Part shown: positions 40,806-47,604 of the stretch, in pieces
Layout of the letters: each line of letters starts with the position of its first letter
How positions within the stretch are numbered: position 1 is the stretch's first letter
Assembly: GCA_025782575.1 (NCBI GenBank)
Contig: JALGYY010000017.1
Coordinates: forward strand, 423,892-487,891
Reading direction: 5' to 3'
DNA: 64,000 nt
Origin: a bacterium
GTDB taxonomy: Bacteria; Orphanbacterota; Orphanbacteria; Orphanbacterales; Orphanbacteraceae
Notes under the pieces: model-generated
What the model was told of the DNA's origin: nothing
The model's database searches: none
Seen by the model: the letters and a program-made list of their open reading frames with translations, nothing else
Position numbers and translations under genes: made by a program

Positions 40806-41987
40806 CTATAGTGCCGCGATGATCGCGTCCGTCATCTGCTGCGTGGTGGCCGCTCCTTCGTCGATCGCCTGGGCGGATCCACGAAGACGCTTCATATCAT
40901 ACGTCTGTACCTTGCAATCGGCGACAACGCCACCGACCGCGTCACGAATCTTCTTTGCAGTTGCCCTCTCGCCGATATGGTCGAGCATCATGCAACCGGT
41001 AAGAATCATTGCCATCGGGTTTACGATCGAAGGCTCGAGAGCGGCATACTTGGGCGCACTCCCATGAGTCGGTTCGAAGATCGCGCACTTCTCGCCGATA
41101 TTCGCGCTGGCCGCGAAACCGAGGCCGCCGACAAGCCCTGCAAAACCATCGGACACAATGTCACCGAACATGTTCCCCGAAACGATCACTCCGTATATTT
41201 CCGGATTCTTGGTGAGCCACATCATCTGGGCGTCGATATTGGTATCCCAGAGATCGATTCCCGGATAGTCGGCTGCGATGTCCTTGCCGACCGAGAGCAT
41301 CATCCCCGAAGTCTCACGGATGACATTCGGTTTCTCGCATACGGTGACATTGCTGTACCCGAATTTCTTGGCATACTCGAACGCTGCGCGGACGATCCGT
41401 TCGCAGGCGCCCCTCGTGAAGATCCGGGTCGACACGGCGAGATCTTTTCGCGGAGCGGATGCGAAATTCTTCATCTTCGGGTGGGTCATGAGAGCGTCAT
41501 AGACCTGGTCCGGAGGGTTGGTCCACTCCACGCCACCGTAAAGACCCTCGGTATTCTGGCGGAAGATCACGGTGTTCACTTCCGGCTCATCGATGCCGCC
41601 GTCCCTGGTTCGACGCACGAAGTTCAGGGGGTTTCCAACGAACGAAATACAGGGGCGGATCGAAATGTCGAGATCGAAGTACTGTCGGAGTTTCACAATG
41701 GGACTGTAGTAAGTAAAGCCCTTGTCTCGAAGAGAGGGATCGAGTTCCTCGGTTGCTTTGTCCTTAGGTTTTGATGTGATGGCACCGAAAAGACCGATCG
41801 GGTGTTTCTCCAGCAATTCGATCGTTCGGTCTGGCAGCGGGTTCCCCTCGGACTTCCAGAACTCCCAGCCAATATCTCCATGCACCCACTCAGCCTCGAA
41901 TCCGGCCGCTCCGAGAACGCGGATGGCTTCGGGAAGAACGACCTGGCCGATCCCGTCTCCCGGGAGTGCCACGATGGTTCGCTTCAA
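40806..41987 (-). CDS. Isocitrate/isopropylmalate dehydrogenase family protein
   Basis: About 393 residues of the beta-decarboxylating dehydrogenase family. Signatures are '[20 protein letters not shown]' at the N-terminus, substrate-binding '[14 protein letters not shown]', the conserved Lys/Asn in '[13 protein letters not shown]', the metal Asp region '[20 protein letters not shown]', and the NAD-binding '[10 protein letters not shown]'. Isocitrate, isopropylmalate or homoisocitrate are possible substrates. The absence of leu genes nearby slightly favours isocitrate, but this is not decisive. The start is a TTG at 41987 with AGGAGGAAG five bases before it; the frame is open to 42239 without any family similarity. 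It begins a likely operon with the PP-loop enzyme and dcd. Confidence 0.88.
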
Positions 41988-42072
41988 GGGACTTCCTCCT
42001 GCTTGCAGGCGGTCCGGCCGCCATTTTTCGAGTGAAATCTGGTCGATCACCGACACAGGCGATCTAATGGAT

Positions 42073-42102
42073 AGTGTACTGTTTTTGGCGTCGTGGGGCC
42101 AA
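42073..42102 (-). promoter_or_regulatory. Possible promoter of the dehydrogenase operon
   Basis: On the minus strand TTGGCC (42097-42102) and TACACT (42073-42078) are 18 bases apart, upstream of the TTG start at 41987. Each hexamer matches four of six consensus bases. The 200 bases between 41988 and 42189 show nothing else I can name. Confidence 0.35.
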
Positions 42103-42189
42103 CCGAATCGGGTGCTTCGGGCGATCGGTGCTACCGTGTGTACTGGCCCGTGAGGGATTCTACAGACAGAATACCGACAAAAGTCAGCG

Positions 42190-43974
42190 CTATAAGCGGG
42201 GTGTAATCGTAAGCGTCTTCCCACGGGAAAAGGCGTCACGCAGGCCCTGAAGCAGTGCCTCGAACTGCGGGTAGGGCGGGGCGTCCGGCGGGCAACTCTC
42301 GAGTGTCTCGATCGCCTCTTTCACCCGGCCCTGATAATTCTGGGCGACCGCCAGCCTGAAATAGATCTCCCGATTCTCCGAGTCGGCTTCCAGTATGCGC
42401 CTGTACAGAAGCTCCGCTTCTCGATAGCTCCCGCTCAGGATACGAACCGATGCACGGCCCTTGAGAGCGGGCAGGTAGCCATCCATTTCGTCGATGGCTC
42501 TACCGAACTCAGCTTCGGCCTTCTCGATATTCTCCGCCTGAAGCGACAGAAAACCCTGGTGTGTGTAGAACTTGGCTCGCTGCCGCCGATTGAACTTCGC
42601 CACCTCTTCTTTGGGATCGGGAAGTCCTTCGAAGGAATCCTTCATCTTCCGGCCCGAAGAAATATAGCCGAGCGCCGCCAGCCGCGCTTTCTGCTCTTCG
42701 CCGATCGCCCCCATCACGGTCTCGACTTGCTTGACAAGCGATTCGTCCCGCAGATGTTTCCGCATGATTTTTCCGAGGCGGATCGCCGCCGGATTCTCAG
42801 GGTCGTAGAGATTCACCGTCTCGTCCGGATCGCCTCTCATGTCATAGAGTTCGCGTTTCGGCGCTTCGATATACTTCCATTTCAGGGTCCGGATCGATCG
42901 GGTGGGGCTCCACCCATAATGAAAATAGCCTGAAAACGCTTCGGAGTACACGGGGACCTCATCGAATTCGTCCTCTCGAAGTATCGCTCCCAGGGAACGG
43001 CCGTCAATCGGGTAGGGTGGCTCGAGCCCCATCAGTTCCGTAATGGTCGGCAGGATATCAATATTGCGAACGAACTTGCTCGTCCGCCTGCCCGGGGTGA
43101 CCCGTCCCGGATACTTGATGATCAAGGGAGTTCGAATTGTTTGATCATAAACAAAGAACCCATGCTCGGCCTCCCCGTGATCGCCGAGACTCTCACCATG
43201 GTCCCCTGACAGCACGACAAGAAGATCATCCGCAATGCCATCGTGCCTGAGACCTTCGAGCAGGCGGCCGATTTCGCGGTCGGTGAACGCCACCTCCCCC
43301 TCGTAGTTTCGCCCTTGGTACTGCTGCTGAAACGGCGGAGGAGGATCGTACTGCGAATGAGGGTCGAAGTAGTGCAGGAACAGAAAAAACGGCTTCTTCC
43401 GCCCCCTATCGACCCACGCGAGAGCCCGATCCGTCACTTCATCGGCCCGCCGCTCGAGACCGGCGCCGAGTGCGATTCCGGATTTCTTCATCGCCCCGGA
43501 GAATACCGTCATTTCCTCGGGAAACGAGTCATCGTAGTGGTCGAATCCTTGAGACAGATTTCGTTCTTCGGCGAGAACGGTCGAGCCGAGAATCGCTCCC
43601 GTCCGATATCCCGCCGATTGAAATATTTCGGCCATCGTCGTGAACTGACCATGAAGATCCATGTCATTCGCGCGCACCTGGTGCCGGTAGGGATAGAGAG
43701 ACGTCATCATCGTACACATCGAAGGGAGAGTATAGGCTGCCTGCGAGAACGCGTTTTCGAACAGCATCCCTTCTGAGGCAAGGCGGTCGATCGAAGGCGT
43801 TCTGACCAGAGTGGAACCGTAACACCCGATGCGATCCAGACGGATCGTGTCGATTACGATAAAGAGGACACTCGGTCCATCCGGCACCGACCGGCCGCAT
43901 GCCATGCCCGACAGAATCCCGAGAAGAATGAGAGCATATGCCCGTTGAATCGCTCTCCTGTACCGTCCTTTCAT
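42190..43974 (-). CDS. Sulfatase-fold lipoprotein with TPR tail (third of three)
   Basis: A 594-residue protein with a lipobox (SGMAC, Cys about 26). The alkaline-phosphatase/sulfatase domain (about 35-400) has the first metal Asp in 'FIVIDTIRLDRIGCYG' and the later 'GDHGESLGDHGEAEHGFFVYD'. The nucleophile segment reads 'YTLPSMCTMMTSLYP'. Compared with sulfatases (C-x-P-S-R), Thr82 occupies the Cys position and Met the Arg position, so it cannot form formylglycine. Thr nucleophiles are known in this superfamily (EptA, LtaS), so phospho-transfer or phosphodiester cleavage is likelier than sulfate hydrolysis. Three to four TPRs follow (about 460-580). Its ATG overlaps the previous gene's stop by four bases. 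Confidence 0.85.
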   Translation of the reverse strand: MKGRYRRAIQRAYALILLGILSGMACGRSVPDGPSVLFIVIDTIRLDRIGCYGSTLVRTPSIDRLASEGMLFENAFSQAAYTLPSMCTMMTSLYPYRHQVRANDMDLHGQFTTMAEIFQSAGYRTGAILGSTVLAEERNLSQGFDHYDDSFPEEMTVFSGAMKKSGIALGAGLERRADEVTDRALAWVDRGRKKPFFLFLHYFDPHSQYDPPPPFQQQYQGRNYEGEVAFTDREIGRLLEGLRHDGIADDLLVVLSGDHGESLGDHGEAEHGFFVYDQTIRTPLIIKYPGRVTPGRRTSKFVRNIDILPTITELMGLEPPYPIDGRSLGAILREDEFDEVPVYSEAFSGYFHYGWSPTRSIRTLKWKYIEAPKRELYDMRGDPDETVNLYDPENPAAIRLGKIMRKHLRDESLVKQVETVMGAIGEEQKARLAALGYISSGRKMKDSFEGLPDPKEEVAKFNRRQRAKFYTHQGFLSLQAENIEKAEAEFGRAIDEMDGYLPALKGRASVRILSGSYREAELLYRRILEADSENREIYFRLAVAQNYQGRVKEAIETLESCPPDAPPYPQFEALLQGLRDAFSRGKTLTITPRL

Positions 43975-45686
43975 CGCGGTAATCCTGCCGCTTCCCGTGC
44001 CGCTCCATAGGCCCGCAGATAGTGCTCATTCGACGGCTCATTCTCCACGCACTCAGCGAGCAGCTTGACAGCCTCATGAAACCGGTTCTGTACCATCAGG
44101 CTGGCCGCCAGATTCGCTTTGTGCTCCAGGTTTTCGGTGTCCAGTCGGATGGCCCTCGTGAACAGCTCCTCCGCCTCTTTGCCACGGCCGGCGATCAGAT
44201 GAATCCGGGCGAGGTTCTCGACTGCGACCAGGCTATTCGGGTCCATGAGGAGAGCGCCATCCAGGAACTCCCGCGCCTTTTCGAATTCACCGGCCTCGAT
44301 ATGAGGATGAGCGAGGTTCGCAATCAGGTTAGCCTGCAACCGATTGTTGAATGCCTCCATTTCATCCTTCGGATCGGGGAGGTCGTTCCCTGCCCAAGGC
44401 ACATCAACAAGCGCTTCGAGCCTTCGGAACTGCTCTTCATCCAATTGACCGATACCGGTTCCCCTGTCGGGCTGGGCACGTTCGTGGCGCATGCGCGAAT
44501 TCATGATCTCCTCCAGAACTTTTCCTACTACATGCCCCGGTTCGTAAATGTTGTCGAGTTCGAGCGGGTCGTTGTCCAGGTAATAGAGCTCCTTTCGCGG
44601 AGCATCAACGAACTTCCACACTTCCGTCCGGATCCCCCGCACCGGACTCCAACCATAGCCGAAGTAACCGCGGAGCGCTTCACTGTAGGCGGGCGCCTCG
44701 CGGATATCTTCCCCTCGAAGTGCCGGAACGAGGCTCCTTCCTGCGATGTAGCCGCGTAGGGTCAGTCCGCAGATATCGGCGAGGGTAGGCAATACATCGA
44801 TCGATTGAACAGTACGATTGACGACCACACCTCCTTCAAAGGCGGCGGGATAGGAAATGAGAAACGGTACCCGTACGGTCGTATCGTAAACGAAGAATCC
44901 ATGCTGAGGCTCAAAGTGGTCGCCAAGGCCTTCCCCATGGTTCGCGATCACCAGGACGATAGTATTTTTGCGAATGCCGGCCTCAGATAGCCCGGCGAGC
45001 AACCGGCCGATCTGAGAATCGGTGTAAGCCACCTCTCCCTCATAGGGCTTTCCGGCGTATTCGACATCGAAGGGCGGCGGCGGGTCATAAAGGGAATGAG
45101 GATCAAAATAGTGGACCATCATAAAGAAAGGCCCTTCGGTCGAAGCGAGGATCCACGAAAGAGCCCGGTCTGTGACATTCGAAGCCCGCCTCTCCGAGTG
45201 CCGCCCCGGGCCGATCCGGGCCTGTCGGAGAGACCGGTTGAAAACGTTCATGGAATCGGGGAAGTCGTCTTCGTAGTGATCGAATCCTTGCGTGAGCCCT
45301 CTTTCCCGATCGAGTAAGGCCGAACCGACGACAGCACCTGTTCGATACCGGGCATCCCGGAAGACCTCGGCGATGGTCGTTACATCCTCGCGCAGGTCCA
45401 TGTCATTGTCCCGGACCTGGTGCTGGTAAGGATAGAGGGAGGTCAGAATGGAACAGATCGAAGGGAGCGTCGAGGACGCCTGCGAAACCGCGGCATCGAA
45501 TCGAGTTCCTTCAACGGCCAGACGATCGAGTACGGGCGTTCGAACGTTCTTCGCGCCGTAGCAGCTGACACGATCGGCCCGGAGAGTGTCGATAATGATC
45601 AGCAGCACGTTCGGCCGGACGTCACGCTCCCCCGAACAGGCGAGCCCGGCAAGTACCATCAGAATCAACACGGCTGCTCTTCTCAT
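43971..45686 (-). CDS. Sulfatase-fold lipoprotein with TPR tail (second of three)
   Basis: A 571-residue paralogue of its neighbours on both sides. The lipobox LAGLAC ends at about residue 17. The nucleophile region is 'SSTLPSICSILTSLYP' with Thr73 in the Cys position and Ile in the Arg position. This copy differs in the second metal motif, 'IANHGEGLGDH', where Asn replaces the metal-binding Asp found in the two flanking copies, so it may be catalytically weak or inactive. The C-terminal TPRs (about 465-560) contain 'EAEELFTRAIRLDTENLEHKANL' in part. Both ends overlap neighbouring genes by four bases, so the three proteins are made from one message in coupled fashion. Confidence 0.84.
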   Translation of the reverse strand: MRRAAVLILMVLAGLACSGERDVRPNVLLIIIDTLRADRVSCYGAKNVRTPVLDRLAVEGTRFDAAVSQASSTLPSICSILTSLYPYQHQVRDNDMDLREDVTTIAEVFRDARYRTGAVVGSALLDRERGLTQGFDHYEDDFPDSMNVFNRSLRQARIGPGRHSERRASNVTDRALSWILASTEGPFFMMVHYFDPHSLYDPPPPFDVEYAGKPYEGEVAYTDSQIGRLLAGLSEAGIRKNTIVLVIANHGEGLGDHFEPQHGFFVYDTTVRVPFLISYPAAFEGGVVVNRTVQSIDVLPTLADICGLTLRGYIAGRSLVPALRGEDIREAPAYSEALRGYFGYGWSPVRGIRTEVWKFVDAPRKELYYLDNDPLELDNIYEPGHVVGKVLEEIMNSRMRHERAQPDRGTGIGQLDEEQFRRLEALVDVPWAGNDLPDPKDEMEAFNNRLQANLIANLAHPHIEAGEFEKAREFLDGALLMDPNSLVAVENLARIHLIAGRGKEAEELFTRAIRLDTENLEHKANLAASLMVQNRFHEAVKLLAECVENEPSNEHYLRAYGAAREAAGLPR

Positions 45687-47461
45687 TGCGCCTGTGTCGA
45701 AGCCGGGTCGAAGTTGAATTGAAAATGGAACTGCACCGTGTCCCCAGCATCCCGCGCATCAATCAGGATATCCAGGGATCGCTGAAAACGCATGTCTCCG
45801 GGGGCATCCACCACACACCGCTCAAGGATCTCGATCGCTTCATCCGAGCGGCCCAGGTTGGTAACGGCAATCGCCAGGTTTCCCTGGTAGGCGGTATTAG
45901 TGGTATCGGTAGCGACCAACCGATGGTAGTACTTCTCCGCCTCGGCGTACCGGCCGGTCAGCATCATGGTCGCCCCGTAGTAGATCAACGCGGGAGGCAG
46001 GGCCGGATTCAGTTCGAGCGCCTGATCAAGCAGGACGAGCCCCTCATCGTAGCGTTTGGCGGCCAGAAGAGGACGGGATGTAGACGCCAGTCTCTTGGCC
46101 ATCTGATTGTTTCGAAACTGGAGCACTCCCACTTTGGGATCGGGAAGATTCGAAAACGATTCACGAATCGAACGTTTGCCCGTGGTGATATAACCGAGCG
46201 CCTCCAGTCTCTCTCTCTGGGCATCCCCGATGTCGGCGGTTTCCGGTTCCACTTGCTTCACCGACTTTTCGGCGCGCAGGTGACGGGTCATTTCCGCAAC
46301 CAGTCTCTCAGCAGTGTCGGTTTCAATATCGTAGAGATTCCGGAGCTCCCCGGGATCGGCCTGCACATCGTAGAGCTCCCGGTCAGGAACCTCGACATAC
46401 TTCCAGCGATCCGTGCGAATCGAACGGGCTGGGCTCCATCCGTAGCCAAAGTAACCGAGAAAAGCCTCGCTGTATGCCGGTTGCGGCTCCCACTCCCCTC
46501 CCTGAAGAAGGGGCAAGAGGCTCCGCCCCCTGATTTCTTCGGGCGGGACGAGGCCGGTAAGGTCGCAGATCGTCGGCATCAGATCGATTAGATTGACGAG
46601 CCGATTCTCCACCCGGCCTTCCGGCACATGGCCGGGGTATCGAATCAAAAGTGGCACATGAATCGTCGACTCATAAACGAAGAAGCCGTGCTCCGCCTCG
46701 AGATGTTCACCCATACTCTCCCCGTGGTCCGCGGCAAGGACCACGATCGTCTCGTTTCCCCGTCCCGTCTTTCCGAGCGCTGCGAGCAGTCGATCGATTT
46801 GCGCGTCCGTATACGCCACCTCACCGTCGTATGGTCGCCGAGGGTATCGGTGCTGAAACGGAGGAGGGGGATCGTACTTGGCATGGGGATCGAAATAGTG
46901 GGCAAACAGAAAGAATGGTTCATCTGCGTTCTCTTCCAGCCACCGGATTGACAGATCGGTCACATCCACCGCCCGCCGCTGCGCTCTATCGCCGAGGGCA
47001 ATTCCGTTTTTTCGCAGAAGATCACTGTAGACCGTCAGCGATTCGGGAAAATCGTCGTCATAGTAATCGAAACCCTGGGACAGGTTTCGGTCTGCTGCAA
47101 GGACGGCAGAACCAAGAACAGCTCCGGTTCGGTAGCCCGCACTCTGGAAGACCTCGGCGAGAGTGGTGAAACTGTCGTGCAGATTGGTCTGATTGTTTCT
47201 CACCTGATGTTCATATGGATAGAGAGAAGTCATGAGCGAAGTGAACGAAGGGAGTGTAAACGCCGCTTGTGTGAATGCGGCGCTGAATCGAGTCCCTTCA
47301 CGAGCGAGCTGGTCAATCCCGGGGGTCGCCACTCCCTGGGCCCCGTAGCAGGAAAGCCTGTCGGCGCGGAGAGTATCCACTACGATCAGGAGTACATTCG
47401 GACGCACCGGTCCCCCGCCGCATCCGACCATGAGGACGATGAGAAACGCCAGTCGCTTCAT
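45683..47461 (-). CDS. Sulfatase-fold lipoprotein with TPR tail (first of three)
   Basis: A 592-residue lipoprotein with a short signal peptide (lipobox LMVGC, Cys14) and Gly linker. The sulfatase-fold domain has the metal motif 'LIVVDTLRADRLSCYG', the nucleophile segment 'FTLPSFTSLMTSLYP' (Thr69 for Cys, Phe for Arg) and 'ADHGESMGEHLEAEHGFFVYES', cut here. TPRs follow at about 460-570 ('EGLVLLDQALELNPALP', 'EAEKYYHRLVATDTTN'). AGGAGG directly abuts the ATG, and TAGCAT ends six bases before it, so a leaderless start is possible. It is the promoter-proximal gene of the three-gene unit and is divergent from the amidase. Likely a periplasmic or surface hydrolase or transferase; the substrate is unknown. 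Confidence 0.85.
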   Translation of the reverse strand: MKRLAFLIVLMVGCGGGPVRPNVLLIVVDTLRADRLSCYGAQGVATPGIDQLAREGTRFSAAFTQAAFTLPSFTSLMTSLYPYEHQVRNNQTNLHDSFTTLAEVFQSAGYRTGAVLGSAVLAADRNLSQGFDYYDDDFPESLTVYSDLLRKNGIALGDRAQRRAVDVTDLSIRWLEENADEPFFLFAHYFDPHAKYDPPPPFQHRYPRRPYDGEVAYTDAQIDRLLAALGKTGRGNETIVVLAADHGESMGEHLEAEHGFFVYESTIHVPLLIRYPGHVPEGRVENRLVNLIDLMPTICDLTGLVPPEEIRGRSLLPLLQGGEWEPQPAYSEAFLGYFGYGWSPARSIRTDRWKYVEVPDRELYDVQADPGELRNLYDIETDTAERLVAEMTRHLRAEKSVKQVEPETADIGDAQRERLEALGYITTGKRSIRESFSNLPDPKVGVLQFRNNQMAKRLASTSRPLLAAKRYDEGLVLLDQALELNPALPPALIYYGATMMLTGRYAEAEKYYHRLVATDTTNTAYQGNLAIAVTNLGRSDEAIEILERCVVDAPGDMRFQRSLDILIDARDAGDTVQFHFQFNFDPASTQAQ

Positions 47462-47604
47462 CCTCCTATGCTAGCCCCAATTTTCCAATAAATCCCGACC
47501 AAAATCGCGCCATGATCATTCATGATCTTGCGGCCGGCGAATCGAACCGGGTCGGAATCAGTTTTTTGGCGGGATGTAAGCGGATCCGTGCTACGTTTCG
47601 CGCC

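Follow-up and report, generated by a model that had tools for sequence, protein, structure and literature searches.

What is the function of three adjacent genes encoding proteins of the sulfatase fold, all with a threonine in place of the formylglycine (FGly) cysteine? The genes lie on the minus strand at 42190-47461 of the window, by which we mean the whole stretch of 64,000 nucleotides that was analysed, and their three open reading frames are intact (Table 1). As an earlier note on this DNA had proposed, neighbouring genes overlap by four bases, and both junctions read ATGA. The proteins are indeed paralogues with a sulfatase domain and a TPR tail: pairwise identities between S1, S2 and S3 are 45-52%, and all three match PF00884 in Pfam (E-values of 7e-44 to 6e-54), as well as PF16347 (SGSH_C) and several TPR models. 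GC content by codon position is similar in the three genes, which therefore look maintained.

Table 1. Features of the three-gene set (window coordinates).
Feature	Position	Strand	Remarks
First gene, S3	45683..47461	-	592 aa; signal peptide, permissive lipobox Cys14, Thr-type sulfatase fold, TPR tail
Middle gene, S2	43971..45686	-	571 aa; same architecture as S3 and S1; metal-ligand Asp replaced by Asn
Last gene, S1	42190..43974	-	594 aa; same architecture as S3 and S2; T82, D258, H259 and H271 all kept
Thr69 codon, first gene (predicted nucleophile)	47255..47257	-	start of helix 69-78 in the model
TPR tail, first gene	45746..46138	-	model helices 442-572; seven helices
Asn249 codon AAC, middle gene	44940..44942	-	Asp in 53 of 53 relatives
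ATGA start/stop overlap, first and middle genes	45683..45686	-	
ATGA start/stop overlap, middle and last genes	43971..43974	-	

The PF00884 domain begins around residues 20-34, right after the signal peptide; it leaves no room for an N-terminal transmembrane domain, which was found in none of the three proteins. The lipobox claimed earlier is present under a permissive PROSITE-like pattern (Cys14, Cys17 and Cys26) and absent under the strict pattern [LVI][ASTVI][GAS]C. At the start of the first gene (47455-47470), AGGAGG directly abuts the ATG, unusually close for a Shine-Dalgarno sequence, and an in-frame stop lies just upstream.

The nucleophile motif reads TLPSF in the first protein (T69), TLPSI in the middle one (T73) and TLPSM in the last (T82). 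The C/S-x-P-S-R modification motif is thus absent from all three, and FGly cannot form, as the earlier note had concluded. The calcium-binding pattern [DE]-[DQ] of FGly sulfatases (PMC5066984) is not found either: near the N-terminus, Asp is followed by Thr (IDT or VDT) in all three chains. A cysteine at position +5 of the motif was considered as an alternative nucleophile and rejected, since it occurs only in the middle and last copies and is Thr in the first.

When the family profile is aligned with E. coli EptA by HHalign (probability 97.9), T69 falls on the EptA nucleophile, and residues D29, H193, D245, H246 and H258 of the first protein on the five EptA metal ligands. A threonine nucleophile with EptA-like metal ligands is thereby well supported. 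In MCR-1, to which we carried over the EptA numbering by motif, the two zinc sites are formed by Glu246, His395, Asp465, His466 and His478 (PMC5175174). All five ligands and the threonine are present in both the first and the last copy; in the middle copy one Asp is missing. Among the sampled homologues, the fourth ligand is always His in Thr forms and always Asn in Cys forms; phosphonate monoester hydrolases (PMHs) and the arylsulfatase of E. faecium, EfAS, combine Cys with His (PMC12421950).

We predicted the structures of the first and middle proteins. The AlphaFold2 model of the first, built with 21 sequences, has a pLDDT of 87.7, and in it a helix begins at T69. Its top Foldseek match is a PMH (E-value 1e-26); S1 sulfatases and more PMHs come next. 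Over the whole sequence, too, the proteins score far higher with sulfatases than with EptA or LtaS, with about 20 bits for the NCBIfam EptA model against a cut-off of 561, and 18-27 bits for LtaS against a cut-off of 970. Together, the Foldseek matches and the EptA alignment point to a scaffold like that of PMHs and sulfatases, equipped with catalytic residues like those of a phosphotransferase.

Among known systems, the closest fold belongs to the PMHs and FGly arylsulfatases (4uph; EfAS, 9koq), which have the D...D-H metal ligands of the triplet but a Cys-derived FGly instead of its Thr. In EptA, MCR-1 and LptA the nucleophile and the five metal ligands align with the triplet, although overall similarity is low; EptA has an N-terminal transmembrane domain, whereas the triplet has a short signal peptide, an SGSH_C-like C-terminal part and TPRs. 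LtaS shares the Thr nucleophile and the D-H metal motif, but it is a five-TM protein and its score is very weak.

The main oddity of the set, missed by the earlier note and new here, lies in the middle copy: an invariant metal-ligand Asp is replaced by Asn. Among 53 relatives, 38 alignment columns reach a conservation of 93% or more. Neither the first nor the last protein departs from any of these; the middle protein keeps 35, with Asn249 at the metal-ligand position and the LGY linker deleted. The middle gene is free of stops and frameshifts, its product sits on the longest of the three branches in the tree, and its model shows the same fold (pLDDT 87.2). The codon was read from one genome of the species, and AAC at 44942-44940 may be a sequencing error.

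In EfAS, none of the variants D311N, H312A, D20N and C61A retains activity on sulfate, phosphate or phosphonate substrates (PMC12421950). We equated D311-H312 of EfAS with the DH of the triplet by motif and by alignment of the first protein to PMHs. The lost metal-ligand Asp and the dead EfAS equivalent make the middle copy a probable pseudoenzyme. It recalls PbgA (YejM, LapC), in which the superfamily fold has also lost its metal site; PbgA, however, is a membrane protein that lacks several ligands, whereas the middle copy lacks one.

We put at roughly 60% the probability that the three proteins are tandem paralogues from a widespread, uncharacterised branch of the alkaline phosphatase superfamily that uses a threonine nucleophile. 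They would be exported, probably lipid-anchored enzymes acting on phosphoesters at the cell envelope, with the first and last copies active and the middle copy inactive. Most likely they belong to the phospho(di)esterases or phosphotransferases with a Thr nucleophile; transfer of lipid headgroups is conceivable, hydrolysis being just as likely. A search for a close homologue that has been characterised found none, which counts against this assignment, as do the lack of pathway genes nearby and the better overall scores with sulfatases. In the literature covered, no characterised TPR-fused protein of the Thr type was found.

The chemistry and the cell location are inferred, and from homology we propose a mechanism along the following lines. 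In the first protein, predicted to be active like the last, the threonine would be activated by a divalent metal with Asp29, Thr69, Asp245 and His246 as its ligands, and would then attack the phosphorus of a phosphoester. The resulting phospho-Thr intermediate would be resolved by water or by an acceptor, and His193 and His258 may hold a second metal, as in MCR-1 and EptA.

A more elaborate proposal makes the set a hetero-oligomeric complex for lipid-headgroup or phospho-transfer, held together by the TPRs, in which the middle copy would have no catalytic role and would serve for regulation or substrate binding. In its fullest form, the middle protein would regulate or scaffold its two catalytic paralogues through the TPRs, and the set would modify a phosphorylated component of the envelope. 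Both forms are improbable. Translational coupling of the genes, the TPR tail kept in all three proteins and the intact middle gene, whose losses at conserved columns are confined to one metal ligand and the short linker, are consistent with a complex. Coupling, however, is explained by tandem duplication alone, and at this locus the relatives have a single copy or no copy at all.

The locus itself is an Eisenbacteria block conserved in the family, with rplI, a PpiC-like gene, a bifunctional nuclease gene and a divergent amidase gene on one side, and isocitrate dehydrogenase, a ThiI-like gene, dcd and SelA on the other. Between the amidase and isocitrate dehydrogenase, the genome of the window (G000) has three sulfatase-fold genes, G004 (the same sequence as L026, Candidatus Eisenbacteria Dive96_bin2.117) and G002 have one each, and G003, G005 and G006 have none. 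In G002, isocitrate dehydrogenase is absent from that place. With 3, 1, 1, 0, 0 and 0 copies, the locus is single-copy or empty in the relatives and the triplet appears as a lineage-specific tandem set. A conserved operon partner of the sulfatase genes was considered and rejected, since synteny showed these genes to be optional inserts between the divergent amidase and isocitrate dehydrogenase. Three irregularities of the neighbouring genes are recorded here. The isocitrate dehydrogenase frame is over-long as listed (40806-42239); its likely start is a TTG at 41987, with AGGAGG at 42000-41995, and about 200 bases separate it from the sulfatase genes. The selA homologue of G004 is split across two frames (L026:10895-12306), perhaps by a frameshift or an assembly error. 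In G002 (L110:2927-7526), the divergent amidase gene is duplicated in tandem.

No lipid or glycan pathway genes were found beside the triplet at the locus. Other Thr-type clusters of the genome (C47, C11 and C34) give no shared pathway, their neighbours being a mixture of PEPCK, HlyD, Band 7/NfeD, ETF and HisRS. A recent triplication unique to this genome was also considered but is not favoured, as the three copies do not come together in the tree. In the larger tree the first copy falls with the relatives' single copies (97/96), a grouping that the smaller tree does not resolve, and monophyly of the three copies is not rejected (p-AU of 0.07). An independent tandem run of three Thr-type TPR sulfatase-fold genes, with the motif TLPAH, lies on a Sedimentisphaerales (Planctomycetota) contig (L029:199-6866): tandem arrays of this type recur.

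It is also improbable that the proteins are sulfatases working without FGly. The superfamily is promiscuous, and among solved structures S1 sulfatases and PMHs are the nearest in sequence and fold. However, the classical Cys, the Arg, the second Asp of the DD pair and the Asn ligand are all replaced, and formation of FGly from Thr has never been shown (PMC5066984). Nor is there much likelihood that all three are non-catalytic binding proteins in the manner of PbgA/YejM, a fold without a metal site (PMC4973235), as the lost ligand of the middle copy could suggest, since no catalytic or metal residue is missing from the first and last copies.

How particular is the threonine to these genes? A profile search of the genome gave 45 PF00884 matches, and we aligned together the 42 that cover the domain. 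At the nucleophile position, Thr is found in 40 of them, Ser in one, Glu in one and Cys in none; 35 keep the complete Thr/D/D/H/H/H set. The genome encodes five FGE-family (PF03781) domains, yet no full-length PF00884 protein with a Cys nucleophile. After TLPS the residue is mostly His, hydrophobic in many proteins and Arg in none. The protein with Glu (L095; G000:C34:26900-29800) also has Thr-Thr for the Asp-His metal motif, and is likely another pseudoenzyme of this genome.

Beyond this genome, Thr occurs in 24 of 24 homologues from other genomes of the phylum and in 21 of 27 from named genomes of other phyla (Cys in 5, Ser in 1), in both cases among sequences picked by similarity to the triplet, so that these percentages are not unbiased. 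Thr had already been noted in 30 of the 59 PF00884 seed sequences of Pfam, where the Thr type was described as a large uncharacterised fraction (PMC5066984). Thr-containing PF00884 proteins annotated as sulfatase-like hydrolase/transferase in Acidobacteriota, Planctomycetota, Coatesbacteria, Eisenbacteria and others share the Thr nucleophile and the D-T, DH and HG motifs. Many have TPR tails, as do those closest to the triplet, and most have His after TLPS; the Eisenbacteria clade of the triplet has F, I or M, like several other subfamilies.

From the counts in the genome, the phylum and the seeds, the threonine is not particular to the triplet. The missing Arg of the motif, correctly pointed out earlier, is as general as the threonine in this genome and phylum, and neither marks out the three genes. 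The reading of Thr for Cys was likewise correct as sequence, but it is already known and general, and the idea of an undescribed system is not supported: the Thr type prevails in this genome and had been described in PF00884 before.

The genome thus holds a large expansion of an uncharacterised PF00884 class, and nearly all annotated 'sulfatases' in the lineage cannot be FGly sulfatases. With a census devoid of Cys, sulfatase counts based on PF00884 would falsely suggest degradation of sulfated polysaccharides. The triplet itself offers a handy pair of predicted-active proteins, together with a natural Asp-to-Asn variant, from this large Thr class.
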